Below are positions 1 to 24,547 of a stretch of DNA of 24,547 bases, piece after piece. A program made the translations under genes and the position numbers. Below the pieces are notes generated by a model, which saw nothing but the letters and a program-made list of their open reading frames with translations, had not been told where the DNA came from and did no database searches. How positions within the stretch are numbered: the stretch's first letter is position 1; every line of letters begins with the position of its first letter. Location: positions 1-24,547 of the IMG/VR virus record IMGVR_UViG_3300017738_000037, one strand, 5' to 3'. The DNA comes from a virus.

Positions 1-3000
1 GTAAACTTGACGCTGAGATTGGTACCAATTCCAGTGGCAGTTGCAATTCCAATAATATCACCTTCATAACCATTTACAGTTGGTATTAATGAAACACTTT
101 CAATACTTACAGGTGGAGTTGGTAATAACGCATATGCACTTGTTCCATATCCACTACCAGCATTGGTGATATTTGCACCAATAACTGCACCGTTGGAAAT
201 AATTGCAGTTGCTAATGCAGTTGTTCCAAAACCAACCGTGATATCAGGTGGATTGGATATGGAAATTGTTACGATTCCAGTATATCCAGAACCACCATTG
301 ATAACAGTGATTGTAGAAATTGTACCAGCATTTACTCCAACACTTAGAATACCTACAACTGGATCTTCTCCTTGAGTAATGATACCATCGAAGTTGGTAG
401 ATGGAGTCACTGCTTCATAGTTAAACAAACTAGCATTATCAAGGAAGAGGAAATCTTGAGTTGTAGATGCAGAACCAATAATTCTTGCTGTTGGATAGAT
501 TTGTGGTTCTAGTGCTTCACGAGTCTTGGGAATAATACGTCCATCAACAGTTCTATCAACTTTTTGTTTTCTCCAAACAACAGGTCTCTTGAAGTTGTTA
601 TCAATACCCTGTAGAGAGTATAAGTTAGTTGCAAGAATATCAGATGCAACAATTTCATTAACAACTCTTGGGTCTTGATCTGGAACAGTAGAAACACCAA
701 CTGGTTTAATTAAGATTAATTCATCACCAATTTTAATGGATTCAACTACGTTAACAGTATTAACATCATCATTACTACCTCTATAGAAGTAAATTGTAAC
801 TTGGTCTGCCTCTTGTGGAGGACTTGTGAATTCAAATGCAGTACCACCTTCAAATATGTAATCTTTGTTTGGAATTTGAAGAACACCATTAATAAAGATG
901 ATAAGAAGTGATGGGAAACTAATAGGTGTTCCATCTGCTTTCTCAAAACTGACTAACTGCTCATTTTGGAATAGTGGGAATCTCTTTGTTACACCATCTT
1001 GTAATGAAGTAATATCATCAATATAATCAAGTTGACCGAATTGCCATCCGTAGAAAGTATCAGAGAATGTATCAATAACTGTAAGTTCAAATGGTTCAGT
1101 TTCAGTTGTGTAACCAACGGTCTTAGATCCAGCAAGGATTTTCGCAGCGGTTACTAAACCAACAGGACTAACTTTATCATTGAGTTGGAAACCATATCCT
1201 CTGTTTCCAATTGTAAAGTTTTTAACGCCACTTGTTTCTGATGCAACACCACTAGTACTAATACCACCAACATTTAAAGTTACAGATAATCCAATACCAG
1301 TAGCAGTTGTCTGACCAATACCTAGTCTAAAGAGACCTCTAACTGGGAGATCATCATAAGCTGGTCCAGGAGTTTCTAACCTTGGAGCAATAGTAAATCC
1401 AGTTCCAACATAATCTAGAGAAGGAACAAGACTTCCACCAAAACCAACTGTAGTAGTAACTGTTAAACCACTTCCAACACCATTTTCAGGAACTACTGTT
1501 ACTGGAACATTATTTCCATAGAATCCACTACCAGGGAAGAATTGATTAACCTTACCAACTTTACCACCAGAGTGATAGAAGTGTTTAAATGTACAGATAC
1601 CAACGTCAGTAGTAAATTCAGTAGCAGAATATACATCTTTAACTCTAAATGGACCTGGATTTAGTTTCTTCTCAGCAATACCAGAGCGTAACCTAGCAAT
1701 CATACCTCCACTACCGTAGAAGTGTTGATAAGTCGAAATACCAACTCTTACTCTTAATGTATTTGCGTCAGGTGCAGCAATTATCTTATAAGGACCAGTG
1801 TATTGTTGTGGTTTGGATGTACCGCCACCAGTGTAAGTATGAGCAATTGGAGATCTTCCAACATTGATGGTATATTCCTTACTATTAGTAATAGCAAGTA
1901 CTTCATAAGGTCCAGTATATCTTACAGGAGATACTCTACCAGAGTGATCATAAGTATGGACGTAAGTAGAAACACCAACATTAACAGTGAATGTATTTCT
2001 GTCAATTCTTTCCTTAACTGTGTAAGGACCAGCAAATTTAACTTCTGCTGCAGTACCACCAGAAACATATGTATGAGCAAGAGTTGATACTCCTACATTA
2101 GTTACAAATGTTGTTGAGTTAACAATAGTCGTTAATTCAAAGTCAGTTTGCTTATCTGGATAAGTCTTAGAACCATATGCACATGATACGGTCATACCCT
2201 GCAATCTAACCTTCTTAAATCGGACAAAATTATGGTTGGTTGCGGTAGTAACGGTCGCAATACCAGACTGATTATCATATTGGAAGTTACTAATATTAAC
2301 AACTGTTCCAGTATCTTGTGGGAATACATGTGTAGTACCACTACCAATTGGGCAAAGCATATGGATATTTTCAAAGTTAATTAACTGCCCAGTTCCAAGT
2401 TGATTGAAACCATTGGTTGTTACTGTTGCCAAACCAGTCATATTGTTATATTCAAAATTAGCAATCTTACTAAATGAACCTTGAGGATTAGGGAACTTGT
2501 CACTTGTAACACCAGTTCTTACATTACCACCACTGACATATGTGTGTACTATAGTTGAGATACCTGTGTTTGTTACGAAAGTATTAGCATCAATAACGTT
2601 AGTTACTCCGAAGAAGAATCCTGTTCCACCATCTGGATATGTTTTCATACCAGAAGTACATGTCAAAGCAATACCAGATAGTTTTACATTTTCACCTGTT
2701 GTTAGTCCATGACCAACTGCGGTTATAGTTGTAACACCAGTAGCGTTAGTATAGTTAAATCCAGTGATAGGAACATCAGTGAAATATGTTGGTCCTGTTA
2801 ATCCAGTACTCTGCTGAAGATCTGGAGTTGCACCAATATTAACAGTAATAGTATTTGGAGTTCTTGCCTCAATATTAATATTATTATCATAGAATGGATC
2901 TCTCTTATGTGATAAACCTTCATCAGTTGCACTTACAAATGTATGTACAGAAACGTTTGTGGAAGGTACAGTTGCTAATGTTTGTACTTCAAAAGTATTT

Positions 3001-6000
3001 GTAGTGACGTTTTGTACTTTTATCCACTTACCACTGAAAGGATCAGTTGGTCTTGGATAAGTTTTATTTGTAGTATTTCCATCAAGAGTACAAGTAAATG
3101 TTAATGAATTATCTGCTAACTTAATTTGCCTACCATTCTCAAATCCGTGGTTAGGAACAGTAAGTACCATCATACCAGTAGTAGGATCGTAATTAGCATC
3201 AGTTACAGTTTTAGTCTCTATAAGAGTTCTAGGATAACTATGCTGAGTCGCATTATTATCTTTATCACATGTAAATGTTAGTGAGTTATCTGCTATTTTT
3301 ATACTTGTTCCTACATCTAAGTCATGAGAACCAATGGTAAGTACCATTTTACCTGAATTTGGATCGTAACTCGCATCAGAAACATTATAATTTACGATAG
3401 TTGATACACCAACATTTAAACTGACTGTATCACTAGTTGTAGCAGCAATAGCAACAGAAGTATTATAGTATGGGTCTTTTGCACGTTTGAATGTGATGCC
3501 ATTAGTAACTCCAGATACAAATGTATGAGCATCAGTATTTGTAGAAGGGATTACATCTAATACTTGGACATCAAATGTTTTTGTGGTTACATTAGAAATT
3601 TCAACCCACCTATTACTAATGAAATCAGTAGAACGAGGATATGCGGTTGCCACAGTTCCACTAGTAGCACCAACATTAACTGTGATTGTTCCACCAGCTT
3701 GGTCTACAGCAGTAATTAATAGAGGAGTATTATATGCAGGATCAGTTGCACGAGGATAATACTTAGTCTTGACGTTACCGTCAGCAGTACAAGTAAATGC
3801 AAACTTCTCAGCACCAATTTCTACTAAGTCATCAGTTGTGAAACTATGTGCCCCAATGGTAAATACCATAACACCAGTTGCAGGATTATATGTGGCATTA
3901 GTTACATCATGTTTTGTCTGGACAGGACCAACAGTAATTGTAACAGCATCAGTTACTGTTCCACCAGCCCATGTATGTGCTGAACCTACACCATATTGAC
4001 ATGAGAATGAAACCGCACCATCAGCAAATTTAACTTCATCACCATTTTTCATTCCATGAGCAGCAGGAGTGGTGATGGTCATGATACCTACAACAGGATC
4101 ATAAACTGTGCCAGTTGTTGCGGTAAGAGAAGCAGTAGTTGAACGAGGATATGCATGAACAGTTGCATTATCATCCTGTGAACATGTGAATAGTAATGAA
4201 TTTTCATTAATTTTAACACTTGTTCCAGTTTTTAAGGTATGAGCACCAATGTTTACTACCATTACACCTGTAGCAGCATCGTAAGTTGCAGCACTAACAT
4301 CAAATGGGAGAATAGGAGATTTACCTACATTAAGTGTGATTGTAGTACTGGTTGTCGAAGCAATACCAACAGCAGTATCATAGAATGGATCAGTAGATCT
4401 TGGATAATTCTTCGTTGATGTATTACCATCCATTGTGCAAGTAAATGGTAGTGAACCATTAGCAATCTTAACACTTGTTCCAGTTGGTAATGTATGAGCA
4501 CCTATTGTTAGTACCATCACACCTGTCGCTGCATCATAAGTTGCATCCGTAACATCATGATTTACGATAGGTGATGCACCAACGTTGATTGTAAATGTAT
4601 CTGTGGTTGTTGCTGTAATAGCAGTTGCAATTCCAGAAATAGGATCAGTTGATCTAGGATATGTCTTAGTCGCTGTATTGCCATCCATTGTACAGGTAAA
4701 GGATAATCCATTATTAGCAATAGAAATTGTATTTGATCCAGTTAATAAATGAGCAGCAGAAGTAATTACCATATCACCACTGGAAGGTGTATATACTACA
4801 TCTGTTACTGCATTAGGTAAATTACCAACATTTGAGGTAACACTGTTTGCTACAGCAGATAAGAATGTATGAACATAATTACCACCTGATTGGATTGCAC
4901 TAGTTGCTGTACCAACAAATGTATGTGGATGGTCACCGCCACTATTAATTACTTCTTTCTTAATACCACCCTCAAGAGCAGATACAAATGTATGAACTGA
5001 AGTATCTGTGGAAGGTGTAACTGTTAATACTCCTACACTAAATTTGTTCTCATCAACAACAGTAACCTGTGTAAATGTACCACTAAGAGGATCAGTAGGT
5101 CTTGGATATGGATGAAGAGTTGCATTACCATCTTTATTACATGTAAATGTTACTGCATAATCATCAAACTTAATATAATCACCATTTCTTAATCCATGAT
5201 TAACTTTAACACCCTTTGAAGTAGCACTCATGAAGGTATGAGGAACAGCATGACTGATAGCACCTTTTCCACCATTAACATTGACTGTAATTGTGTCAGA
5301 TGTATAACGTATGATTGGTAAATCCTTATCATAGACATAATCATTACCATTTGATCTTGGATATGCCTTAGTTTGTAACTTACCTTCAAATACACAACTA
5401 AAGGATATTGATTCTGTGTCAAGACGTACACTATCATAATTTGTTAATCTATGAACTCCAACAGTCAATGTCATTTCACCACTAACAGGATCATAAATCG
5501 CATCTGATACAGTCAATTGCTGATTAGTAACAGTCATTATACCTGTAACTGGATCATACAAAGCAGTATCTGGTGTCAAACCAAATTGAGGAACAAATGT
5601 ATGTGTATAGTTACCACCAGTCTGGACTGCGCTAGTTGCTGCACTTACAAAAGTATGACTTCCACCAGCTCCGCCAGTACAAGCGAAACCAAGATTTTCA
5701 AGTTTTACAAACTGACCAACAAATGTAACACCATGACCAACGTTAGTGGTCACTGTCATTATACCTGTGAAATTATTATAATTAGCGGTGCTAATATTTC
5801 TACTTAAACCATTAGGATCTGGGAAAATATGAGTTGTAATACCTGTACCGCCAGGACAAGTTAAGGCAAGACCAGAAATACTGATTAGTTCACCACCAAT
5901 TGCTCCATGATTAGGAACAGTAAATGTTGCAATACCAGTAGAGGTGTTGTATGTCATTCCAGTAATACTACTAATACCACCAGGTTCTTTACTTGGTTTT

Positions 6001-9000
6001 GGATCGTATACGTGACGATATGAAGAAACCCCTACATTAGTTCTAAATGACCTATCACTGTAAATAGTATCAACAATGAATGAATCAGTCCTTAGTTTCT
6101 TCTTACTGATTGCATTTTTTGTATCTACATCGTAGAAGTGAGTATAAGTTGAAATACCAGCATCAATTGTAAACGACTTCTTACCGACAATACCAGTTAC
6201 GATAAAGGTATCATCTACACCACCAAAGTTCTGTTTTCTTACTTCACCAACGCCAATTGAAGGTGTATAGTTGTGTTTGTAAGTGGTAATACCGACGTTA
6301 CAGTTGAATCTAGGACCACCTTTTGTGATAGCACCAGTAGCAACACCAACAAATGTATGTGCATAGTTACCACCTGCAATAACAGCGCCTGCAGTTGCAC
6401 TATCAAATGTATGAGCAGATAAGTCACTGATAGAAGAAAGACCTACACTAGAGTTGACATTGATAGTAATAGTCGTTGAGGTTACTGCACTAATTTCTAA
6501 AGATTTCTGATATGCATAATCTGGAGTACCAGCATTGATACCAGTACCACTAGCACGAGGATATGACTTGACTAAAGTGTTACCATCTAAAGTACAAGTA
6601 AATGATATTGAGTTATCTGCTAATTTTATATGTTGACCGACTGCAAAAGCATGAGAACCAATAGTCAACTCCATAACACCTGTTGTTGGTTCGTATGTAG
6701 CGTTAGTTACGTTGAAATTAACTATCGGTGATCTACCAACTTGAAGATCGATGGTAGTATTTCCAACGCCAACAACTGAAACTGGTTGCTCGAATGATTT
6801 ATCTACTTTATGTGTAATACCACCTGTTACAGCAGATGTAAATGTATGTGCATCTATGTTTGTAGATGGGGTAGAATTGTCAGATAAAGACTGAATCTCA
6901 AAAGTATCTGTTGTAGTATTAGAAACTTGTATCCATTCTCCACTAATAGGATCACTAGAACGTGGATATGATTTTGCACTCTTACTTCCTAGAGAATCTC
7001 CAACATTAAGTGTAAACTCAGTTCCTGATGTAACAGTTACAGCAGTGGTTACTCCTGCAATAGGATCAGTAACACGAGGATATGTGTGGGTTGTTGCATG
7101 ATAATCTGCAGCACAAGTAAATGTTAATGAATTGAAATCAAGAGTAATTGTATCACTAGTTGACATTCCATGAGCAGCTGCAAATCCTAATGTAAGAAGA
7201 CCTGTTGATGCATTATAAGTTGCTGCGTTAGGGGTCTTTTCATTTCCAGATTCTGCACCACTCTGGACATTAACAGCATTAGTTGTTGCAGATACAAATA
7301 TATGAGTAGTTACACCATAACCACATATGAATGATAATGATTCATCTGCTAATTTGACCCAACATCCATCATCCATGCCATGACCAGCAACAGTTATAGT
7401 TGTTACACCTACAACAGGATCATAGATGGCATTAGTTGCTGTAAAGGTTTTAATTAAATTTCTTGGATATGTTTTTTGAGAACCTGTGGAATCCATATCA
7501 CAGGTAAATGTTAATGCATTAGTTCCAATATCAACAGTTTCACCAACAGAAATACCATGTCCATTACCAACAGTAACAGTCATGATACCTACAACAGGAT
7601 CATAGATGGCATTAGTTACATCATATGGTCTAGGTGCAAGAAGTCTGGTTACTTCATAAGGACCAGTTTTCTTAATTGCAGAAACTGTACCACGAGTATT
7701 AATTCCAACATTTAATGTAATAGTATCTGCCCCTACTGCATCAATGTTAATTGCAGTATCATAATAAGGGTCACTAGCACGAGGATAAGTCTTAGTTGTT
7801 ACATTATTATCGTCCTCGCATGTAAAACTCAATGCTCCGTTTGCTATCTTAATACTGGTTCCAGTTGTTAGAGTATGGGCACCAATAGTTAAGACCATTA
7901 CACCTGTATCGTTGTCATAAGTAGCATTTGTTACATCATGATTAACAATAGGTGATGCTCCAACGTTAATTGTAATAGTATTAGTAGTTGTTCCTGTAAT
8001 AGTAATAGTTTGTCCAGATACAGGGTCAGTAGATCTTGGATAAGTCTTCGTTGCTGTATTTCCATCCATTGTACATGTGAAGGACAATGCGTTATCAGCG
8101 ATGGTAAGTGTATTAGAAGTTGTTAATAAATGAGTAGCAGAGGTAATTACCATATTACCTGTGTTAGGAGTATATGCTACGTTTGTAATTGGGTTTGGTA
8201 AATTACCAACGTCACTTGTAACTCCATTTGTTACAGCAGATAAGAATGTATGTACATAATTACCACCAGACTGAACTGCATTACTTGCTGTTCCTCCTAC
8301 CCATGTATGTCTACCAAGGTTATATGTGTGAACAATTGTAGAAACACCAACATCAACCCAGATTGTATTTGGATCAACTATTCTTAGAACTCTGTAAGAT
8401 CTATTAGGTTCGTCAACATAATCTGGGAATCTATGAGTAGTTACGCCAGCATATGCTGAAGAACAATTAAAGAGAAGATTTTGTAAATCTAGACTATCTG
8501 TTACTTTAAAATCATGAGCAGCAGTTGTGGTTACAGTAGCAAGACCAGTAGCATTATTATAGAAAACTGTTCCAATATTATATTTTCTTCCTAATGATTG
8601 TGGGAAAATAGTTGATGTTAGACCAGCAAAACCACTAGGACATGTAAATCCTAAACCAGCAAAGTTGACTCTATCACCCAATGCAAATGGTATAGAATTT
8701 CTTGCAACAGTAATAGTAGAAAGACCAGTAGTATTATCGTAAATAAAGTCAGTTATACTGTGACCAATACCTGATTGCGATGATGGATATATGGTTGTAC
8801 TTAATCCAAGAAGTGCAGTACCACCACTTACATAAGTGTGAGCAATTGTGGAAGGTCCTACGTTAACTCTGAACTTATTTCTAGTTGGTGTGCTAGAAAC
8901 AATAAATTCAAATCCATATTTACCAGTTGGGTAGATATGAGATGTAACACCAACCTGTACCTCACCACCTTCAGTATAAACATGAGGAATAGAAGTTATA

Positions 9001-12000
9001 CCAACATTTGTTAGAATCTTGGTTGGAGAAAGAACTTTAGTAACTCTGAATTGATTTCCCTGTGTACCATCTGGGAATGTTGAAGTTGTTACTCCAAGAT
9101 AGTTAAGAGTTTTAATCGCATTTGTAGTTGCACTAACAAAGGTATGTGGGAATGTACCTGTACCACCAGTTCCAACATTAACTTGGAATGAATTTGTAGT
9201 TACACCTGAAATTGGTAGATACTTATTATATGCAAAGTCTGTAGGACGAGGATATGGATGAGTTGTAGCACCACCATCTAAAGTACATGTAAATACAATA
9301 CTACTTGCACCAATGGAGATTTTATCACCATTTGTTAATCCATGATTAGAAGCAAATGTGACTGTAGAAAGACCAGTTAAAGGTTCATAAGTAAATCCAA
9401 TAGGTGTTCCAACATTAACTTTTGGACATGTAAATCCAAGACCAGTTAATTTTATCTGTTCTCCAGGTAGTGCTCCATGAGGACTAGGAGTTGTAATCGT
9501 AGTAATACCTGTAGAATTATTATATTCAAAGGTAGAAATAGCAAATGTTATTCCATATCCAGCACAAGAGAATTCAAGACCCTGCAATCTAACCTTATCT
9601 CCTTTGGAGAATTTATGAGGAGTTGCTGTAGTTATTGTTGTAAGACCTGTTGGTGCGTCATAGATGGCATTAGTAATGTTAGCACCATATCCACACTTTA
9701 AGTTAAGATTTTCAATAAAGAGTCTTTCCCCTTCCACATATCTGTGAGGAGTTGCCAAAGTAATAGTAGCAATACCAGACTGATTATCATAATTAAAGGC
9801 AGAGATAGTCTTAGCAATACCTGCTCTACAAGGGAAGAGAGTGGTTGTAATTCCAGCTTTCTGACTGATTTGAGCAAACTTTTGACCAATACATGTGAAA
9901 CCAATACCATTGAAGAATACTTCCTCACCTACTTCTAAAATACCAAATCTTTCTAGAGTGGTTACTGTTGCCATTCCAGTTTTATTATCATAAAGGAAGT
10001 CAACCACAGTCTTCTTCTGACCTCTAGTATATGGGAAGACACCAGTAGTAATTCCAGATTTAGTTGGTACACAAGTAAATCCAATACCTACAAAATCAAT
10101 ACTATCACCTGCTTCTAATCCATGTGCTTGTGAGGTTGTAACTGTAGAAAGTCCTATAGTATGATCGTAGACATAATTGGTAATGCTACTCATTCCTTGA
10201 GTTGTTGGTGCAGTCAGAATCTTATAAACTTCACCTGCATGGTTGATAGAAGCACCAATAGATGGATTACCTAGGTTTGCAAATCCTTTACCTTCGCTAG
10301 AACCTAAAGTAACAACAACACCACCTCTAGGTAAACCATTTTGGTTAATATCTGTTGCAGAAACAATAGGATCTCCACTTTCATTAAGAATACCAGTGAA
10401 AGTTAGATCAGTCTGACCACCAGTTTCTCTAATGAATAGGTTTGCATTAAAGTTATTTGGAGTTTGTGGTTTTTGGAACATATTGTTCACAAAGAAGATA
10501 CCAAAACCACCTTCACTACCAATACCAGTTATATCTTCACCTTCAGATCTAAGAGTAAATGTTTTTGCAATACCAGTAAACTGACCAGAAATATCATCAA
10601 AGATTTTATTGGAATCATAATTTTTTCTCAAATAAACTCTTCCATTAAAACTAGATCCTGCTTCTGGTATACCAGTTGTAGATGCTTCATCAGAAGATTT
10701 ACCACCATTAGGAGCACCAGTGAAGAAAATATTATTTCTAGAGAAGTTATAAGAACCAGTGTATTTTTGAATTATTGAACCATTAGCATGGAACGATGCT
10801 GCTGTTCCTACTGAACCACGTTGAATCTTACATAAGTTAATTGTACCAATACCACTAGAATTAATATCAGTAGTAGTTGTTCCAACACCAACAGCTTCAA
10901 CAAGTACAAATTCATCATTAATCTCAAATAAATCACCAAGAACAATAGATGAAATACCAGAAACTGCCATAAATGTGGAAGTTTTACCAAGACCAAGACT
11001 AGAACCAGAAAGAGTTGTATTATTCTCTAGAGTCCTAGTAATTGGTGACCAAGTAAGTGGTTTTTGAACAAGACCATCAATCGCAATAAGAGATCTGGAT
11101 AGTTTACCAGTTGAATCAAATTCGTGAAGATTACCTGCACCAACAGATCCTAAAGTAGTTCCAATACCAGCTAAGGCAGCTACCGTGCTGAGACCGATTC
11201 TAAACTGATCTTCATTATCTTTAATTGCGTAAACTGGAGATGGTAGAGGATTTCCGTTTGCAAGAGTCATTGGTGCTGTGACAACACCAACAAATGTTCC
11301 ACCAGGGAGATATTCTAATTCTTGACCACTTGCAAAGAAGTGATTTTTAATAGTAAATTGACCAGTAGCAAGATTAAGTGCAGAAGTATTAGAAGGATTA
11401 AATGTTTTAGAGAAAATAGGATATCCATTCCACAACATTGGGAATTCAAAGATATTTCTAAAATTCAAACCTGTGTAAGTAGTATTGAAAGTTTCTTCAA
11501 CAACTGCTCCATATTCCAATGGATTTACAATATTTCTTTCAAGTTCTAAGTAAAGGACTTCATTAAATGTTCTCATGAACATTTTGTCATTTATACCTGC
11601 CTCAGGTGTAAACACAAGAACAGCCTTTTCACCATCATATTTGGCAAATACCGTTCCCAGACCCGTCGTATTACCGACCGATAATACGGGATATTCCGAG
11701 AAGTATAGAGAATCACCAAGTTGGTCATTCAAGAACATATACTGGAAGGCAGATACTGTCCTTCCATATCCAACAACCATTGTACACTGGTTTACGGACT
11801 GAATATCACTCTTAATACCAGCAAAGTTTGCGGTAGATCCAACACCAACAGTCTGATATTCAGTATAATACTGAGCAGATCTTTCGTTATTAGGAATCAT
11901 TCCTGTTGCTAAGAATCTATAGTCTCTGTTAGTAGTTCCAGTAGTATTACCAAAACCTAATGTTCTTGCTTTTAAGTTTACAAACTCAGAAGGTCTAGCA

Positions 12001-15000
12001 TTATAAAATTCAATACTAAAGTTATTACCACTAGGATCATAAGTAGTTCCAAATGTACCAAATGCACCTGCGTTAGTACCACCAAAAGAACCATCAGAAA
12101 GAATGATATTATATTCAGACATATAACTATCATTTCCATCATGAATTGCTTTCAGTTCAACAAACATGGTCTCTTTTTGACCAGAAGATACAGTTTCTAC
12201 TTCAACTTGAGAATGTAGATAATCAAAGTTTGTTGCTGCAACAGAAACAAAAGATTTAGATGTAGAAGGTCCAATTTCAGCATCAGAACCCATTAGAGCA
12301 GCAAAACCAAACGCAGTGGTACCAATACCAGTCAGTGTTGATTCAGTATTATAAAACTGATTTAGAACTTTAATATCATAATTTTTATCAAATGGATCAG
12401 CAGGGAAGAATCTTAAACGAACTTGTGAATTCTCTGTGTCTACAGAACCTTCAAGAGTTCCTATTTCTTGTGGTGTACTATGTAATTTCTTAAAGGTTGG
12501 TTCTGCATAGTAAGTATTAGTTCCATCTTGAAGAATAGTAATTTCAGAAACTTGGAAATCTCTACGATCTTCACTAGTAATTTGAACAAGGAATCTATTT
12601 GAGATAAAGTTAAATGGATATCTGTAAATATTTTCAAATAGATCCAAAGTGTTTGGATTACTAATATTACTAAACTGACTTGAAATATCGTCAATGTTTA
12701 GAACTCTGTTTGTAATAGATTCAAAATAGTCAGATAATTTTGCATTTTCCAATTCAATTTCATTACTGAGTTCTACCTCACTTCTAGTTGCAATATTAAC
12801 ATCTCTACCTATATCAAAATAATATTGATCATCAACTCTTACTTCTTCAACAAGATCTACTGTAGCATTAGTAACAGTAGTAGAAGTTTGAATACCAGCA
12901 TTCTTACCAATAGTTACTAACTGACTATCAACAAAGTTTTTAAGACCTGTTGGGTGAACACTGTTGTTTACCGCATCAATACAATCTTCATAAGAGACTT
13001 CAGTTTTAAGTGTATATGAAAGATTCTGATAATAATTATTATCTTGGATAACTTGAGCACTTGAATTTAGTTTTCCAGAATCAGATGTTCCTTCAATAGT
13101 CTTATCTGTTTCAGCTTCTACACTGTAAACACCATCAAATCTTAAGATTTCTACAACTTTTGCTTGACTACCACTCTTTGCTCCAATGATAATATCATCA
13201 GGAACAATAGGAGCAGTACCAACAAACTTAATATTTTCAGCAGTTGCATCAAAAGAGATAACTTGTAAATCAGTCTCTGCATTATTTACAAGTAGTTTTT
13301 CATTTTTATCAAATGAAGCTTGTTGTAAACCAATACTAAATGTAGGTAGTTCTTCTTTACCAATAACACGAGAGAAGTTTTGAGTATCACTAACACCCAA
13401 ACCAACATTAAATGTGTAATTTGAATAATCAACTTCAAAGGAGAATGGATTAGTTGTTACAACATTATTAACTTTTAAGAAATTGTATAGATGATCAGAT
13501 GAGTTATAACCATCTGAACCAGAATCTTTTGAAAAACCTTCGATCCAAACTTCATCATTAACAGCAAATGGAGGAGAACTAAACCCAAGAACAGGAGTAG
13601 AAATTGTAAATGTTACAATACCACTTCTAGTTGGGTTAGATTCTGATTTTGTGATGACAATACCGTTTGTATTATTAACTGAATATAACCTATACTCTCT
13701 ATTTTGTAGACCTACAGGATTAGCTGCAATTTCTGTATCTACAATAGAACCTGAGTTTTCATTAATTCTTGCAACAATATTAGCACCAGGAACTTTTGTA
13801 CCTACAAATCTATCAACAAGTTCTAACTTAGGAGCAGAAATATAGTTCTTACCATTAGATAAAATACTAATTGTACCAACAGTATTAAAGTCTCTAATAG
13901 TAGTAACAGTAGGAACATCAACAATTGGTCTTAAAGTAGTATCAGAAGAATAGTTAAATCCTTCATTTACTAACTGAATTGAGTTAATTTGACCAATTCT
14001 GGTTGATTTTGGTTTAATAGTGGAGTTATCACCATTTTCAGAATCAACACCTAAGAATCTTGGTAATTTTCTATAGAATTCTCCACTGGATAGTAAACTA
14101 ATCTGATCAATTGGACCTTCTGGACCAACAGCACCAGTAGCATAGAACCTTCTACCCTCAGTTGCAGCATAAGAAACTTGCTCTGGATTTTTTGCGATCG
14201 CAAAACTAAATGTAGTAGTACCGACTCCAACTGCGGAAGTACCAATACCAGTGATCGTAAACATACCAGTGTATGCACTATCCACATACTTAATAGTATT
14301 ATTTTCTTTTACATCATTATCTGGAATTAATGGTGTTCCATCTTTAGTAACATTATAATAGAGAATCTTAGGACAGAAGGTATTATTATTAACATCTAAT
14401 CTAGCATAAGTGTTACCAATACTAATTACACGATCTTCTGCATCAAGAACATCACCAACTTCAGCAGATGTACTTTGACCAGTTCCTACAAACTCACTAT
14501 TAAATCCTTGGTCATAATAAATTTTGAAATTATATCCATTTAACTCATAGTTTTGTAAATCAAATACAGTTGTAGATCTGCTAGGAATTTCTACTTTTGG
14601 ATTAATTAAACCAAAGTTATGACTCGTACCACCAATACTTGTTAAAGAAACTATAACGGGGACATCTGCCACAGAATCTTCATATGTTTCACATAATCTG
14701 AAATTTTCAGGAGAATCTCTGTAAATGTAATATCTACCAGTTCCTAGTCCACCAATAACTTCTGATTTAGGTTCATAGTAAACTCTATCACCTGTTCTAA
14801 AATTATTACCTGAAATAGAAATTCTATTAGTCGATGTATTAACGCCAGCAGAAGAAATGCCTTGAGAATCAACAATAATCAAACCTTCAGAATTAAGTTC
14901 TATTCTTACTCTAGAACTTGCACCTAAACCAACTTCTTGATTTGCAATTACATTAAAGTTAACAGTATCTCCTATTTTTAACCCATGAGCTTGAGTTGTA

Positions 15001-18000
15001 GTAACTGTTGTAGTTGGTTGTAATACAGATCCTCTTACTGCTGTACCGATACCTTGAACGAAATATCCATCATCGTCACTACCATCGCTAGTAAAGAACA
15101 ATTCAGCACCATTTTTCTGAGTTTTGATGCCAATTGTATTGATTGATTTGTATATAATATAAACTTCTTGTTCGACACCTGATCTAGGTAAAGAATCGGC
15201 AACAAGAGTAGCTGTTGTTCCAATACCAATTGCAGTAGCAACACCAAGAGAAAGTTGACCTGATTTCTTAACAAATAAAGCTTTTTGTCCATCCAAGAAA
15301 GGATGTTTATTTAAGAAAATAGATCCATGCTCAACTACTCTAGTTTGGGCAATGTTATTTTCTGTATAACTAAGAGTCTCATAATTACCTACAGTTGTAC
15401 CTACACCAACTGTTTGTTTTGGATTAAAGAATTTTTTAGGGAAGAATTCAGATACAAATTGTGGAGCATCACTAGCAATAGTGAATCTATCTTGAAGATA
15501 ACTGATAGTACCAGAAGCACTAAATGATGCAATACCTGTTCTCTCAATACGTACTAAATTTTTACCCTTAATTACATTTAATACTTTAGCAACTTCACCA
15601 TCACTAAATTTAATACTAGATCCACCACTTACATTTCCTGGTATTCTACTTACAATAAGATCAGTTACAACACCAACTGCTCCCGCTTTAACTGGATCTA
15701 AAAGTATAGCTCTTTCTGATGCAACACCAACTACATGGAATCCTTGAAGACCTTTAATATCAGTATTCGTGTTAAATATTTCGATAACCTCACCATTGTT
15801 AAAATCATGATTTGGTTGAATAATTCCTGTAATTTCTGTATCACCTGTTTTTTGGAAAGTTACCTCATCAAATTGAACATTAGTGCTTTGTAAATCAGTA
15901 ACACTTTTACCTTTAATGAAAGAAACCTGTGCAGATACCCCATTACCATTAGTTCCTTCTTCATCAAATAGTAAAGTATTTCCAACTTTATAAAGATCAC
16001 CTGCTTCAACGATTTCTAACTCTTCAACACCACCAGTAAAGACAGAATCAATAACACCTTCTTGTCCAATTAATTCATCAGCTTCGATAACAAAATCGTA
16101 ACTAGCATTAAGACTTTTTAATCTGTAAGGATAAGTATTCCTACTAAGATCTAATGCATTAATATCATCGTCCTGAGAGATGGACTGAGACGCTCTAGGA
16201 GCGATATAAGTGTCTCCAATATAATATGGGAAGGATGCTCTTGGTAAACCAGTTCCTGGGTCTATTTCAAGGGTAGCGACATATCCATAAATTCCATCAG
16301 GGAAATCGTCAGATACAAACCATCTACCATTATGAACATCAAGATCACCAGTTCCCATGAACTTATAATCTTCAACAAAGAAACCAGCGGGATATTCTCC
16401 TGCAGTTGGTCTATTTGGAACTAGATTACTCGCTAATTGATATCCAGAACGAACATATGTTGTAATACCTGTGTTTTGTTTTGGATCTCTTGTTGCAAAA
16501 GGACCAAAAATTGGGTTTCCATCGTATGCCCAACCAATAATAGGAGATCTTTGTGCAAGAGAATCTCCAAAATCAGTTTGAAGATCTGTAGAATATGCTA
16601 AAGATGCATATTGAATTGGATATTGAGTCTCAGCATTTAAGAAATCATCTGTTGAATACTTTTCATGCAAATTAACAGTTAATGGTCTTACTGTTGATTC
16701 AATAATACCAGACTGTCCTACAGACCTTACAACAATAGCTGTATCTTCTGCATCGTAGTTTAAACCACCAGAAATTACCTCAACTGTAGAAACCTTACCA
16801 TTTGCATTAAGTTTTGCCTTTAGTTGTGCACCAGAACCTGTAGGACCTGTAACTGTTAAATCTGGAGCAGAAGTATAATTTGAACCAGCACCAATGATTT
16901 GAACCTGTGTAATAACTCCATTACTAATCAATGGTTGGAATTGTGCTCCAGTACCACTTGAAACTGTAATTAGAGGTGGTTTTTCAAAGTTTAATACTTT
17001 AGAACCATAATTTGATCCAGGTTCAGATAAGTATGCACCAATAATCTCACCTCTTACATCTGGTTCGCAAGGAATGGATACTGTTGTTCCACCAATAGAT
17101 GCTACAACAGTAGCAGTAATATCTGGATATTTAACAGTATGAATACCACTACCAACATCGCTAAGGAAAATATATCTACCTCTATTAACATCAGTTTCAG
17201 AAAGAGCTAATCTAAACGCATCTGCATTTATACGAATAATCCTATAATTTGTTTCTGTGGTTAATTCTCGAATAGAATTAGTTGCTTGATAAATTACTTC
17301 TTCATTGTCTAGGAAACCATGTTGTTTTATAATAAAACAATTAGTTCCTGTACTGATACCTGTTGTTTTAGTTTCATAAGTTCTTTTCTTATATCCAGAA
17401 CCTTCAGTAACAACAGAAATATTTTGAATTTTATTTTTAAAATCAAAAGATCTAAACTTATGAATACCTAAAGTATTGAAAGTTGTGATACCAACAGTAC
17501 TAAGACCTGCATTAGCATCATCTTCTGTTTCATGAAGTTTAATAGTAGTTGTGTTAATTACATTGGCAAAATATGCAACACCAGATTGTAAAGTATTTTC
17601 AGCATCATACTGGGTATTATCATCAGAACCTAATGTAATTGCAACACCTAATGGTTGGTTTCCATTTGGATTATAAACAATTTTTTGTCCAGTTTTAAAA
17701 TTATGCTCCCCAATAAAAGTAAGTGTATTCGCAGGAATATCAACACCACCATTTGCTAAAATATCTTTAGCATTGAAATTTGCTTCTGTATAATCTTGAG
17801 ACAGTGTAATTTCACCACTAGCACCTTCTCCATTACCACCTTCAATATTGATACCAAAAACTTGGTCAATATCATAAGACTCTCTGTTTTCAAGATATAA
17901 AGACTTTAGAGATCCACTAAGAACAGGATTAATTACAGCAACTGTTCCACCAACTCCAGGATTAGATACTGTAATTTTTGGTGGATTGATAACATCATAA

Positions 18001-20616: not shown

Positions 20617-22509
20617 CTATCGAGTTAGTGATCCGTTAGTGTAGCTAGAAGAAGTTGGATATGATACTCCAGAAATCTGATCTCCCGAACTAATCGTATC
20701 TTTAATCATATTTATAGTACTTTTAGATAAATCTACATTGAGGTACAAATCTTTTAATCCTATGACATCATTAGACTCTGGAGTTGCTTGTATTTCAATA
20801 ATATTTTGACTTAAAGAAGTTCCAGTAATGAAAATTGAATTAATAAGAACTTCTCCATGCGTATAATCAACTGTACCTGCATTACCGTCTATAGTAACAA
20901 CTTCACCATTACTATCTACGCTAACAATAGTTAGTCTTCCTGTGGTTGTGCTGCCATCTGGTTCATCACTAAAGTAAACAGGTGCACTTTCTCCTCTGAT
21001 ATTAAAAGCAGTGGATTTAATGTTCCTACCTTCTAAATTAACGTGGAATTGATTACCATAACATAATTCATATTGACTCGTAACATTAATTTCTGCACGA
21101 AGGTCTCTTCTCATTTGGATTCTTGTAATATTTGACGTAATCGATCTATCAGAATCATCGACAATATTAACGAACTTACTATACTTGAATCTTCCACCGA
21201 ATTTATTGAGATCTAAGGAATTAGCATACTTTTGAACTGAATTACTGATTCTTGTTTGAAGAGTAGATACATCATTGAATATATTACTATTATAATATAC
21301 AAAACAATCATACTCAACAGTTAGGATTTGTAGATCAACTAATTGTTGATTAATTCCTGCAAGAGCAAATTTCTTTAACTCAGTTGTAATTTGTTGTTTA
21401 GTAAAGTCAGAAATAAAGTTAGCATTTCTTGGTTTGATACTAATTATGACATTTCCAAATTGTGGTGGGTCTAACTCTTCACCACCAACGACTGAAACAC
21501 TCTCAGTATCGGGATAAATTTGCTGAATTATCGCTTCATAATCAGTTGCAGAAACCGCCCTGTATTGCGATGAATATAACCTAGGAGCATAATACTTAAC
21601 TGAGTTAATTGACTCGATCTCATCGCCACTCTGAGCGGCTTGAACGGTAGTTAACGTGATAGTTAGGGTGCTCTGATTTACACTAACATTCAAACCATCA
21701 TAAAAATCTCCTCCAAATGAAAAATTACGAGCACCGTTTCCTTCTCTACCCTCAGTTACAATATAATCGATTCTAATATCTGTATTTGGATCTAATTTCT
21801 TACCAAAAAATCCATCACCAAAAAGAACTTCATATTTTTCATCTTCAATCTCCTGAAGTAGGAAAATTTCAGAGTCTTTGGTAATTTTAACGATATTATC
21901 AACTAATCTATATCTTCTACCATCTCCAATCTCTCCAGGTCTAAAAATAACACTTCTAATAGTCGATGTATCAATAAATGGATTATCTAAAACAAACTTC
22001 TGCTCACTATGACCACTAACTGTAAATGCTTTTGATAATAATGTTCCTTCATATACCTCAAACTGCCCAAAATCAGCAACTCCATTTACAACTGCTACTG
22101 TTCTATCCTCTGGAATGGCAAAAGCATATGTTGTTCCAGAAGAATCACCAGTACAAACTAGACCCTTTCTTAAAGTCAGTGTATTTCCATTGATAACACT
22201 ACTTGGATCAGTAACACTAAGACTTATTGTACCTTGTGCAGCAGTTCTTGATCTAGGAACATAACCAATATTTCTAGCAAGTGAAACAACGTTCTCTCTA
22301 AGAGTAGCAGAATCTATAAAAGATTCATTAACAACCATATTAGTGTTAAATGCAGTCTGATATGTGTTATATGCTAATGTATCGATAAGAACCGACATGT
22401 TTGACCCTTCATAGTCAAAACCAGTAAAGTCGGTATTTGCTCTTAGGTAGTCTTTAATAGAGGATTTAATATCCTCATAGTCTAAATTTGTAAACTTATT
22501 AGATGGCAT
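20617..22509 (-). CDS. 6: Baseplate wedge subunit gp6
   Basis: This is the 630-residue homologue of T4 gp6 (660 residues), a core wedge protein of the contractile tail baseplate. In T4 it forms the inner ring of wedges together with gp7 and gp25/gp53. The N-terminal part has the typical start LDYEDIKSSIKDYLRANTDF, followed by YEGSNMSVLIDTLAYNTYQ and the segment SFIDSATLRENVVSLARNIG, features I know from gp6 and baseplate J-like proteins. The middle holds VLFGDGFFGKKLDPN. The start ATG at 22509-22507 overlaps the gp25 stop by one base (TAATG), with AGAGG ten bases upstream. The stop TAG lies one base before the giant gene, so the three genes are probably cotranslated. Nothing is truncated. Confidence 0.96.
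   Translation of the reverse strand: MPSNKFTNLDYEDIKSSIKDYLRANTDFTGFDYEGSNMSVLIDTLAYNTYQTAFNTNMVVNESFIDSATLRENVVSLARNIGYVPRSRTAAQGTISLSVTDPSSVINGNTLTLRKGLVCTGDSSGTTYAFAIPEDRTVAVVNGVADFGQFEVYEGTLLSKAFTVSGHSEQKFVLDNPFIDTSTIRSVIFRPGEIGDGRRYRLVDNIVKITKDSEIFLLQEIEDEKYEVLFGDGFFGKKLDPNTDIRIDYIVTEGREGNGARNFSFGGDFYDGLNVSVNQSTLTITLTTVQAAQSGDEIESINSVKYYAPRLYSSQYRAVSATDYEAIIQQIYPDTESVSVVGGEELDPPQFGNVIISIKPRNANFISDFTKQQITTELKKFALAGINQQLVDLQILTVEYDCFVYYNSNIFNDVSTLQTRISNSVQKYANSLDLNKFGGRFKYSKFVNIVDDSDRSITSNITRIQMRRDLRAEINVTSQYELCYGNQFHVNLEGRNIKSTAFNIRGESAPVYFSDEPDGSTTTGRLTIVSVDSNGEVVTIDGNAGTVDYTHGEVLINSIFITGTSLSQNIIEIQATPESNDVIGLKDLYLNVDLSKSTINMIKDTISSGDQISGVSYPTSSSYTNGSLTR
20709..20716 (-). promoter_or_regulatory. 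Possible internal late promoter box TATAAATA upstream of the giant gene
   Basis: On the minus strand the octamer TATAAATA lies inside the 3' end of gp6, about 93 bases before the ATG at 20615. It matches the T4 late promoter -10 element read by gp55. The same bases also encode Thr-Ile-Asn, and in such AT-rich DNA a few chance copies per strand are expected, so position is the only argument. A transcript from here would serve the giant gene alone. Confidence 0.35.
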
Positions 22510-22916
22510 TATCTTGTAGCCTCTAGGATGAACGAAATTGCTTGGGCTGAGGATAAATCCCCAATAATATCATAAAATATTGTTACTCCAAATGCATTTA
22601 GGTCAGGTCTAGACTCAACTTCAACACTAACATTACTAACTCTAGTTTCATATAACTGAATTGTGTTCTTAATTGTATCAGAAACTACAGAAGCAGTTGC
22701 ATCATCAATTAAATTAAACAGAGTATCTCTTATTGGCGATCCAAATTGTGCATTAAAAAATTTTTCACCAGGAAGTGTAAAAACACAATTCTTAATTGCT
22801 GTCTTTATTGCATCTTCGTTCTTAACAACGAGCAAATCATTCGTTACTGGGTGAGGTGTGAATGAAAAACTGATATCTTTGAACGATTTTGAGGTAATCC
22901 TATTGGAAATAGGCAT
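22509..22916 (-). CDS. 25: Baseplate wedge subunit gp25 (gp25/GPW family)
   Basis: This is a 135-residue protein of the size of T4 gp25 (132 residues). The family connects the baseplate wedges to the first sheath ring and helps to set the sheath for contraction; it is found in almost all contractile tail systems. The motif LPGEKFFNAQFG at residues 48-59 corresponds to the conserved PGE-RxxxPxFG-type segment of the family, and SPIRDTLFNLIDD follows. The C-terminal part alternates beta strands (VSNVSVEVES, GVTIFYDIIG) as expected. It is the first gene after the late promoter at 22936-22943. The ATG at 22916-22914 is 19 bases from the promoter box, with no strong ribosome site in between. The stop TAA shares its last base pair of letters with the gp6 ATG (TAATG). 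Confidence 0.95.
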   Translation of the reverse strand: MPISNRITSKSFKDISFSFTPHPVTNDLLVVKNEDAIKTAIKNCVFTLPGEKFFNAQFGSPIRDTLFNLIDDATASVVSDTIKNTIQLYETRVSNVSVEVESRPDLNAFGVTIFYDIIGDLSSAQAISFILEATR

Positions 22917-22969: not shown

Positions 22970-23656
22970 CTACTCAATTTCTCCACTTTTTTCGTCAATC
23001 CACTCGCTAACTGACCTCTCTTTTGCTGTTTCCCAGAAATATTCATCAGTATCTCCCAGTCTTCCCCAGTCTGTTCCTGCCTCAACTTGATATTCTATAG
23101 TAGAAACCTTAAAATCAGGTTTCTTTGGCATCTCAGGAGTGATAGAAAGGTCATATAGACGCATCCGATTGTTAGGATACAGTGCAAACTGCCCATTTTC
23201 GAGTGCTATGCAGTTATGAGACTTGTGTTCTTGTGGAACTTCACTTACATTATTGTCTACTACGTCTGGATTTGCATGGTAATTGTCTAATGTAAACAAA
23301 TATTGACCTTTAATGAATCCATGATCTCTTGTATAGACCTCACAATCCATTGAAGAGACGAAACCTTTGTTGATTGCCACGACTCCATAGTCCATACAGT
23401 TCCAAAATTGGAGATTTTCAAGTGTCATATCAGGATCTGGTGCCTTTGGTGCTCTGACAAATGCACTAATAGGCAGTTTATCGAACATTGCACCGTATTC
23501 TGGTAGGTATGTCTCAAAGTAAAAAGCGCGACCAGGTATCGATTTTGCCGAAACCCAGACGCCCTCTACATATTCACCATGTCCATCTTGATGATCTCGC
23601 AAATATTCCTTACGTACCCAAACTTTTTCGGCAGGAAGATTGCAAATTAGGTTCAT
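22970..23656 (-). CDS. Conserved cyanophage hypothetical protein, 228 residues
   Basis: I do not know its function. The start MNLICNLPAEKVWVRKEYLR and segments such as HGEYVEGVWVSAKSIPGRAF, YLPEYGAMFDKLPISAF and LQFWNCMDYGVV look like a protein I remember as a conserved hypothetical in T4-like cyanophages. It is soluble: no signal peptide, no membrane segment, four cysteines and many aromatic and acidic residues, with an acidic C-terminus (WIDEKSGEIE). The ATG at 23656-23654 overlaps the TGA of the preceding small gene (ATGA), with AGAGGT five bases upstream, which fixes the start. It ends 53 bases before the gp25 ATG, on the other side of the late promoter, so it belongs to the upstream transcription unit. 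Confidence 0.88.
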   Translation of the reverse strand: MNLICNLPAEKVWVRKEYLRDHQDGHGEYVEGVWVSAKSIPGRAFYFETYLPEYGAMFDKLPISAFVRAPKAPDPDMTLENLQFWNCMDYGVVAINKGFVSSMDCEVYTRDHGFIKGQYLFTLDNYHANPDVVDNNVSEVPQEHKSHNCIALENGQFALYPNNRMRLYDLSITPEMPKKPDFKVSTIEYQVEAGTDWGRLGDTDEYFWETAKERSVSEWIDEKSGEIE

Positions 23657-23766: not shown

Positions 23767-23933
23767 TTAATTACCTCTACATTAATGTCTTTTGCGTTAG
23801 GATGCCCCTTTTCGTAGTACTGAATGGCAAGATCTTCAAGAGTATTGAACATTTCTTCCTCTGAAAGATCCTTCCATGCCACTACACCCTTGATTGAAAC
23901 GTTATATCTATCAGATAACTCTTGTTTTTTCAT
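23763..23933 (-). CDS. Small hypothetical protein, 56 residues (74 from an upstream ATG)
   Basis: I do not recognise a function. The protein from the ATG at 23933-23931 begins MKKQELSDRYNVSIKGVVAW and continues with an acidic helical stretch (KDLSEEEMFNTLEDLAIQYY), ending in KDINVEVIK. It looks like a small soluble, mostly helical protein. The frame also has an ATG at 23987, giving 74 residues, but that one has no ribosome site, while the inner ATG has AGAGTT four bases upstream, close to the AGAGGT of the following two genes. I therefore prefer the inner start. The gene overlaps the end of the glycosyltransferase by 23 bases with the inner start, and its TGA overlaps the next GTG (GTGA). Confidence 0.75.
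   Translation of the reverse strand: MKKQELSDRYNVSIKGVVAWKDLSEEEMFNTLEDLAIQYYEKGHPNAKDINVEVIK
23773..23778 (-). promoter_or_regulatory. Ribosome binding site AGAGGT for the GTG-started small gene
   Basis: On the minus strand AGAGGT precedes the GTG by six bases, inside the last codons of the upstream gene. It is the main reason to accept the GTG start and the same hexamer is used by the next gene. Confidence 0.7.
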
Positions 23934-24547
23934 GTCCAACTCTGATATTTGGGTCACAGTAGATCTCAAAACCTGCTGCAATCGCATCTAGACAGAAAGA
24001 AACATCTTCTCCGCACATATCTTGTACCTCTCCAGACTCAAATTCTTGCATCTTAGGAGCAAACCAAGGGTATTTCATTTCTTCGTGTTCAAAAACTCCA
24101 TTTTTGATCAGTACCCACCCAAATCCTGTGTAGTCCACCGTGAAGGGCTTACGGCGCTTTTGCATACTTTCGCCAGTTTCATGATTCATGACACCTCCAT
24201 TGGTACGGAAGTCTTGCTCCTCCAACCAGTGAGCAACAGAAGTTGTGCGTCCATCTTCGGTCATGTACCAACCAGCAGCAATATCCTTCTGCATAAGAAC
24301 TAACTGCAGAAATTGTGCAGAGTTAAAGATAATATCACTATCAATCCACAGTTGATAATCATACTTGAGTTTGCCGTCCCATGGGATTTGGTTAGGACCA
24401 CGGAGAACATTTGCACCTAATACCTTACAACGTGCAAAGTTAACCATTGATGAGTAATCTTGAGAGATCTGAATACTCACTCCCATTTGTACTAGATCAA
24501 AACATAGTTGAACAAAGTTCTTCATGAATGCATATGAACAACCACGA
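23911..24547 (-). CDS. GT-A-type glycosyltransferase-like protein, N-terminus outside the window
   Basis: The reading frame runs off the right edge: seven further codons (ending RGCSYAF) precede the first visible ATG at 24525, so the gene starts upstream. Numbered from that ATG, WIDSDIIF carries a DxD motif at residues 62-64, the usual metal and nucleotide-sugar site of GT-A enzymes. Further on are AAGWYMTEDG, FGWVLIKNGVFE, then GEDVSFCLDAIAAGF (GED at 172-174) and a late histidine in RVGHE (198), matching the acceptor/base and metal-binding positions of GT2-like families. It would transfer a sugar from a nucleotide-sugar donor, with an unknown acceptor: a virion protein, host surface glycan or modified DNA base. 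It leads the cluster of overlapping small genes. The fold call is fairly sure; the substrate is not. Confidence 0.75.
   Translation of the reverse strand, partial: RGCSYAFMKNFVQLCFDLVQMGVSIQISQDYSSMVNFARCKVLGANVLRGPNQIPWDGKLKYDYQLWIDSDIIFNSAQFLQLVLMQKDIAAGWYMTEDGRTTSVAHWLEEQDFRTNGGVMNHETGESMQKRRKPFTVDYTGFGWVLIKNGVFEHEEMKYPWFAPKMQEFESGEVQDMCGEDVSFCLDAIAAGFEIYCDPNIRVGHEKTRVI

Follow-up and report, generated by a model that had tools for sequence, protein, structure and literature searches.

A virus record of 24,547 bases (IMG/VR record IMGVR_UViG_3300017738_000037, positions 1 to 24,547; the whole stretch is called the window here) encodes a giant protein, assigned below to gp7 of a T4-like cyanophage, in which two blocks of repeat units occur in the same order. 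The two blocks are probably two versions of one nested domain series that is shared among phages, and not the products of one whole-block copy made in this lineage. Their collinearity, the split-and-complement pattern of their units, the horizontal sharing of their segments and changes in copy number were all observed in the sequences compared. The modules lacking the YPR end and the half-modules present in both blocks appear, with good support, to be the two parts of units split by nesting, a beta-domain of about 77 amino acids (aa) being inserted in a loop of another copy. The gp7 frame (3..20615) is located on the minus strand, as are all of its features given below, and comprises 6871 aa in the window; residue n starts at window position 20615-3(n-1), reading downwards.

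Two collinear blocks in gp7

Of 2170 ungapped offsets compared within aa 3201-6300, the best was 1127 aa (3381 nt) with a local score of 775, followed by 85 aa, which is one unit period (420), 1212 aa (396) and 1109 aa (282). The initial annotation had paired the landmarks of two blocks at a distance of 3.32-3.38 kb, which was confirmed with offsets of 1127 aa for the first two units and 1107-1110 aa for most others. Equally good pairing at other offsets, named there as a finding that would speak against the pairing, was not seen (775 for the best diagonal versus 420 for the next). At the DNA level, positions 4361-4660 and 7742-8041, 3381 nt apart, share 73% identity. The gapped protein alignment of aa 4103-4687 with aa 5231-5796 has a score of 1467 at 52% identity, and the description of the copies as diverged but in frame is thereby borne out for two blocks that are old, in frame and collinear.

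A hidden Markov model (HMM) of the unit found an identical unit order in aa 4143-4721 and 5270-5797, including the module without the YPR end, which had been noticed in each copy before and was recovered at the matching place in both blocks, and a later half-module. According to the numbering of this parse, block A (6453..8318) consists of a leader and units 15, 16, 17N[18N[19]20C]21C and 22, block B (3225..4928) of a leader and units 29, 30, 31N[32N[33]34C]35C and 36N, where N and C denote the two parts of a split unit and brackets enclose what lies between them. When the order of the 27 N-modules was permuted, a run of six pairs was equalled in 20 of 5000 cases. Both blocks are also present in the contigs L005 (99.98% identity), L006 (99.96%), L008, L009 and L010, and an assembly artefact of this record is therefore ruled out; L007 spans block B only. 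The pairing of units between the blocks is limited in the comparison within the genome, where three of the six N-module pairs are reciprocal best matches (73, 77 and 56% identity) and the other three have their best partner elsewhere. Unit 31 is nearest to its neighbour 30 and unit 22 nearest to unit 37, the respective block partners being less close.

Split units and nested domains

In the window, the N and C parts of split units are complementary around whole inserted units, and each split pair encloses whole units. The N part of unit 17 (7458..7619) stops just past the YPR end at about profile column 54, and half-module 21 (6735..6806), which has a weak profile score alone and was missed by the profile of the automatic parse, gives the remainder; the same holds for unit 31 (4134..4298) with half-module 35 (3408..3497) and for units 36 and 38. 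The N part of unit 18 (7281..7436), which is the YPR-less module of block A, stops about where half-module 20 (6891..6986), carrying the YPR, starts (about column 45), and unit 32 (3978..4115), the YPR-less module of block B, relates to half-module 34 (3561..3656) in the same way. Intact guests are unit 19 (6999..7226) within unit 18 and unit 33 (3669..3905) within unit 32. A further nested unit, 36N[37]38C (2832..3383), begins with the N part that closes block B, and another one between the blocks, 26N[27]28C (5028..5567), is split near profile column 17, with unit 26 covering columns 3-17 and unit 28 columns 17-77.

Split pairs were counted in 61 of the 119 frames with units, from which named duplicates and kin of the window were dropped and the window was kept; frames with fewer than three fragments or with identical fragment strings were taken out (66 left), followed by those sharing half or more of their fragments with a frame already included. 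When N and C parts were paired last in, first out, 60 of 90 pairs were complementary within five profile columns, compared to 28.8 +/- 3.9 (maximum 44) after 2000 shufflings of the C starts and to 48 of 97 with first-in-first-out pairing. A matched split was found in 30 of the 61 frames, and six matched pairs, in five loci, surround another matched pair. The midpoints of the 60 breaks are confined to columns 18-26 (37), 44-48 (14) and 52-56 (9). Coil regions of the AlphaFold unit, which make up 57% of columns 8-70, contain 58 of the 60 breaks, a binomial value for which is a rough guide only since related phages are not independent. The inserts are mostly about 104 or 207 aa long (93-119 aa in 41 cases, 203-222 aa in 17, 314 and 394 aa in one each), corresponding to one, two or more units.

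Rejoined, all six split hosts of the window score as one unit (80.5-112.8 bits) that starts at columns 1-3 and ends at columns 75-77. Compared with ten intact units, the N and C parts of four of the six are closest to the same one, e.g. parts 31 and 35 to unit 30. The string N(50)[N(19)[N(46)[unit]C(46)]C(24)]C(44) in L104, in which the outermost pair is seven columns off, is read by us as four nesting levels. The sequence behind the guest depends on the loop: the tails of single guests have median lengths of 22 and 25 aa at the outer two loops and of 4 aa at the middle loop, and a tail motif like PSTN..HTFVSA...GI is present in 17 of 28 guests at the outer loops, in none of 13 at the middle loop and in 31 of 162 tandem neighbours. 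At the outer loops, the connectors comprise about 20-28 aa and frequently carry an H-T-F/W hairpin motif; those at the middle loop have 3-6 aa.

The AlphaFold model of the piece from unit 31 to 35 (24 rows) points in the same direction. Single domains of the PDB align with it over 70-86 residues within the range 60-282, in which unit 33 is included, among them ubiquitin E1 residues 177-260 (81 aligned, Z 7.3) and phage T1 tail tube residues 14-97 (82 aligned, Z 6.9). Since far fewer residues are aligned than spanned, the middle is skipped, and judging from the alignment ranges the model appears to close 32N with 34C across the guest. A weaker match spans residues 2-313 (75 aligned, Z 4.5), as expected for 31N together with 35C.

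Several results weigh against the nested arrangement. Of the 117 C fragments, 27 were left unpaired. In the window, the automatic parse placed two of five pairs within five columns and missed 21C, the others being assigned by hand from the profile ends. Related phages (e.g. P-HM1, P-HM2, L047, L048 and L075) stay among the 61 frames, so that the counts are not independent. In control joins of halves from different hosts, 11 of 30 reached the lowest true score, a control that is weak because halves split at one loop are interchangeable. The 31-35 model is of middling confidence (predicted local distance difference test, pLDDT, 81; predicted template modelling score, pTM, 0.51), and all its PDB matches have Z below 8. 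The half-modules and YPR-less modules might instead be degenerate or truncated leftovers of unequal crossing-over, for which the unpaired C fragments, the 30 non-complementary pairs out of 90 and the weakness of some C parts alone (8.8 bits for 21C) could be taken as signs. We regard this as very improbable in view of the complementary ends, the few fixed break places, the inserts of whole units and a domain that is discontinuous in the model; on general reasoning, in-register unequal crossing-over would also keep units whole.

A second unit class is present in gp7 (e.g. ITNYVYD..GLSTVTT...GIGFTC) at about 9393-10184, 8346-8756 and 2091-2768. It flanks the blocks, the profile detects its C part weakly or not at all, and it may be nested too.

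Block segments in other phages and the origin of the second version

For the comparison with other phages, the best 80 of 233 stretches were used, from a set retrieved by module sequences and hence biased towards phages with these cassettes. Trees were calculated without duplicate contigs; for the middle segment, the protein tree contains 32 rows, of which 19 were used for the DNA tree. A single profile for the whole block tail kept nine rows only and was replaced by local alignments; we think that this profile was poor because inserts break the match.

The first cassette of block A (A1, leader and units 15-16; 7692..8316) shares 86.7% DNA identity across 625 bp with gp7 of P-HM1, the edges of this similarity being abrupt: in ungapped 30-nt steps, identity rises from 23% to 87% where the cassette is entered and drops from 73% to 33% where it is left. 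Outside the cassette, DNA identity between the window and P-HM1 is 17-40%, and gp6 and gp25 have 39% and 38% aa identity, respectively. The neighbours of the cassette in P-HM1 differ from those in the window on both sides. The DNA tree places A1 of the window and its kin with P-HM1, P-HM2, L047, L048 and L053 (support 100/99, starred), while the first cassette of block B (B1, leader and units 29-30; 4323..4931) groups with B1 of its own kin (100/100, starred) on the opposite side. L055 stands beside B1 in the protein tree only (89/91, not starred). Forcing an exclusive clade of A1 and B1 costs 57 log units with DNA (P value of the approximately unbiased test, p-AU, 0.0004).

The middle segment of block B, units 32-34, groups with P-SSM2 and L104 (DNA support 100/99, starred), and the corresponding cassette B2 (most of unit 32 to unit 34 and the tail; 3516..4046) has 78-81% DNA identity to these two. 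An exclusive A and B group is rejected here with DNA as well (p-AU 0.0104). The outer unit of these sister cassettes is broken at different places, namely at column 21-26 in P-SSM2, 19-24 in L104 and about 54 in the window. Units 31-36 of block B have better matches in L099, P-SSM2 and L104 than in block A, and units 17-22 of block A match L099 slightly better than block B (751 versus 722). L099 is a remote relative (29% identity over 191 aa versus the N-terminal 3300 aa) and contains a single copy of the series unit, unit, N[N[unit]C]C, with break points as in the window, besides two other nested strings. Its giant frame at position 2 (6575 aa), very distant from gp7 of the window, has 39 unit fragments and two matched double nestings.

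P-HM1 and P-HM2 have one close copy each of the first cassette, and L104 has three stretches resembling this segment. Judged by eye, the cassette of leader and two units occurs in eight other surroundings, and two frames bearing it match tail-fibre families at E 0 (L049, phrog_4527; L059, phrog_5342). Recombination is the probable route by which the cassettes spread.

In L052, L056 and L068 (aa about 910-1112) and in L002 (aa about 3758-3960), the cassette seems by eye to be located within a loop of unrelated repeat domains, the junctions being those of FVNASF with TFTYNEEKCRRD and of LWGIVTQAVGTG with NTGNLNGITRTAS.

Among the closest relatives, block A aligns without gaps through L008, L009, L010 and the window. 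Block B has two leading modules in L010 (29 and 31), three in the window and four in L008 and L009, by which single-module change is directly seen. Its count is thus partly phage-specific, and the one-to-one pairing of the blocks depends on the three leading modules of the window. A leader repeat of about 18 aa (HTFVSA..AIQSGGNY) is present once in L010 (aa about 3126-3195), twice in the window (aa 5197-5275) and three times in L008 (about 2306-2395), counted by eye and in step with the leading units. No whole-block change was seen among L008, L009, L010 and the window. A comparison of block number in relatives, suggested in the initial annotation, thus found both blocks in L008, L009 and L010. 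Its view that the protein expanded by whole blocks as well as by single units gains no support from these relatives, which differ by one module and one leader repeat each time.

The initial annotation had explained the blocks by an internal duplication of the whole segment and had expected a unit tree to pair them. With other phages added, the blocks fail to pair in two of the three segments: DNA rejects exclusive A and B groups in the first and middle segments, and the last segment is compatible with them. Paired repeat blocks within one gene need not mean block duplication. Some of the results count against the reading without a whole-block copy. At the protein level, exclusive grouping is borderline for the first (p-AU 0.069) and middle segments (0.055) and is not rejected for the last (0.446, protein test only), so that an old duplication of part of the block remains compatible with the data. 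When whole blocks are compared with the non-kin frames, A and B are mutual best matches (1467, followed by 1133 and 1294).

If the entire block of seven modules had long ago been duplicated in tandem within this gp7 and the copies had then diverged, this would account for the mutual best match, for the collinear alignment over the full length, for both blocks in L008, L009 and L010 and for the last segment. Such a single event is nevertheless unlikely. The first and middle segments group with other phages, and for these two DNA rejects an event private to this lineage; the series is present in the distant L099; and the similarity of cassette A1 to P-HM1 far exceeds that of gp6 and gp25. Later replacement would be required in two of the three segments examined. 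Alternatively, the block may have been duplicated very early, in an ancestor shared by many cyanophages, with copies then lost in some lineages and cassettes exchanged later; we rate this higher, though still as the less probable course. It would account for two collinear versions and their old divergence, and three first-segment-like stretches in L104 agree with it. Against it stand the single close first cassettes of P-HM1 and P-HM2 and the single full series of L099, and the cassette of 87% identity requires horizontal exchange anyway. An independent origin of the two blocks by a favoured building rule, i.e. which unit follows which, is hardly credible: the string N-N-unit-C-C is found again in several phages, whose outer break points differ, but the linkers and modules 1 and 2 are too similar (73 and 77% identity in the N-modules) to have converged, and such a rule could apply only to the block tail. 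Given a nested and shared series, the second version may have come either by import or by very old duplication, both of which agree with the present data.

Proposed architecture, fold and role of gp7

The following architecture is proposed. gp7 would bear a long array of an all-beta domain of about 77 aa, copies of which stand in tandem or are inserted in a loop of another copy, splitting the host into N and C parts, with a nesting depth of up to three in the window. Both blocks would be versions of one series (unit, unit, N[N[unit]C]C, unit). This series and its sub-cassettes would be common to marine cyanophages and to several tail genes, in frame, and would be traded presumably by recombination, the two versions in the window being kin to different phages in different parts; gain and loss of single modules seems to continue in block B. 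The split parts probably fold as one domain, and loops may tolerate guests because the ends of the domain lie close together. More generally, a self-nesting mobile domain is likely, whose loops serve as docking ports for its own copies with port-dependent connectors, so that whole domain trees are traded between phages and tail genes and proteins grow as branched trees rather than as chains. If giant proteins are read as recursive, exchangeable domains, they become parseable. The nested reading shows how such proteins could be divided into fragments suited to expression, makes a clear prediction for cryo-electron microscopy, and lets one ask whether module content tracks host range.

The AlphaFold2 model of the two-unit cassette (69 rows) is nearly all beta (pLDDT 93.8, pTM 0.75). 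Foldseek found no match for the cassette model in the PDB at E <= 0.001. Among viral models, the two-unit model had 31 matches at E <= 0.001, the named ones being Synechococcus phage proteins and many having no name, and the nested piece had 38, including an Ectocarpus virus protein and proteins of uncultured phages. In the structural comparison with the PDB, the small barrel of the phi92 and K1F endosialidases was among the best matches of the two-unit model (Z 5.1-5.4, root-mean-square deviation 2.0-2.5, 56-64 residues), tied with the unrelated PilZ protein VCA0042 (Z 5.4 and 5.1) and below a telling Z. The corresponding Pfam family End_beta_barrel (PF12195) matched weakly with 6 of 69 members (best E 0.011), so that the likeness is weak in sequence and structure. 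The K1F barrel holds one of three polysialic-acid binding sites and, as a sugar-binding site, influences host discrimination (PMC12632334, a preprint). In sequence searches of the PDB, the first 2000 aa of gp7 had no match up to E 1. With the cassette profile, an iota-carbonic anhydrase was the best of five matches up to E 10 (E 0.00028 over 46 residues) and was judged a chance match. NCBIfam gave no match for four queries.

Promiscuous small Ig-like beta-domains have been added at many places in phage virion proteins and are spread horizontally. The gp7 units resemble them in being small beta-domains with horizontal spread. Among the 25 of 37 Pfam families shown for the 69 members, Ig_3 was the sole Ig family, with one member matching (E 0.036), and BACON was absent. 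In crAss-like phages, BACON domains form tandem repeats in tail-associated proteins, which arose through duplication of single domains and through individual domains passed horizontally between phages (PMC6949934, where horizontal transfer of phage immunoglobulin domains is also referred to). These arrays are like that of gp7 in that tandem domains in tail-associated proteins have moved between phages; they are unlike it in the domain itself, and the relevant section of PMC6949934 describes no domain nested in its own kind. In the literature at large, among titles and abstract starts and with most subscription journals outside the coverage, no domain inserted in its own kind was found in phage proteins.

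The assignment of the 6871-aa frame to gp7 is based on family match and gene order. All three scanned pieces match phrog_2885, "baseplate wedge subunit" (E 0, 1.1e-270 and 4.9e-184). The frames of gp25 (22509-22916) and gp6 (20617-22509) are encoded next to it, likewise on the minus strand. The frame is open at the contig edge of the window and stops 142 aa past it in the near-identical contigs L005 and L006, and in L005 it is followed by a frame of phrog_438, also a baseplate wedge subunit. The order gp25-gp6-gp7-gp8 was thus found, and P-HM1 is ordered alike. Among the phage records listed, the labels given to such giant proteins are structural, tail-fibre, baseplate or hypothetical protein; gp7 comprises 4446 aa in P-HM1, 4454 aa in P-HM2 and 5195 aa in P-SSM2. 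The virion proteome of another phage, S-CREM2, includes two proteins termed "baseplate wedge protein, intermediate" (PMC10665884). In T4 as in the cyanophages, gp7 is a baseplate wedge protein working with gp6, gp8 and gp25, for T4 according to PMC3004832 and here judged by the gene neighbours. T4 gp7 has 119 kDa and three domains, whereas the cyanophage protein has at least 6871 aa with a long unit array. T4 gp7 is located at the periphery of the baseplate, and a change of baseplate state makes its A domain swivel (PMC3004832). Because of position, sharing and fold, the gp7 array may be a branched adhesin or spacer, probably for host contact. It would hang from the baseplate and meet glycans of the cyanobacterial surface, and its module content might tune the contact with the host.

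gp7 also contains a YHYH domain (PF14240, E 4e-24) at aa 1269-1450 (window about 16266-16811). The frame adjoining gp25 (22970-23656) matches phrog_3704, labelled ferredoxin, and its DNA resembles that of the Synechococcus phages ACG-2014h and S-SCSM1. A frame at 23911-24546 has a strong match to phrog_1574 (no function assigned) and a weak one to phrog_34859 (glycosyltransferase).

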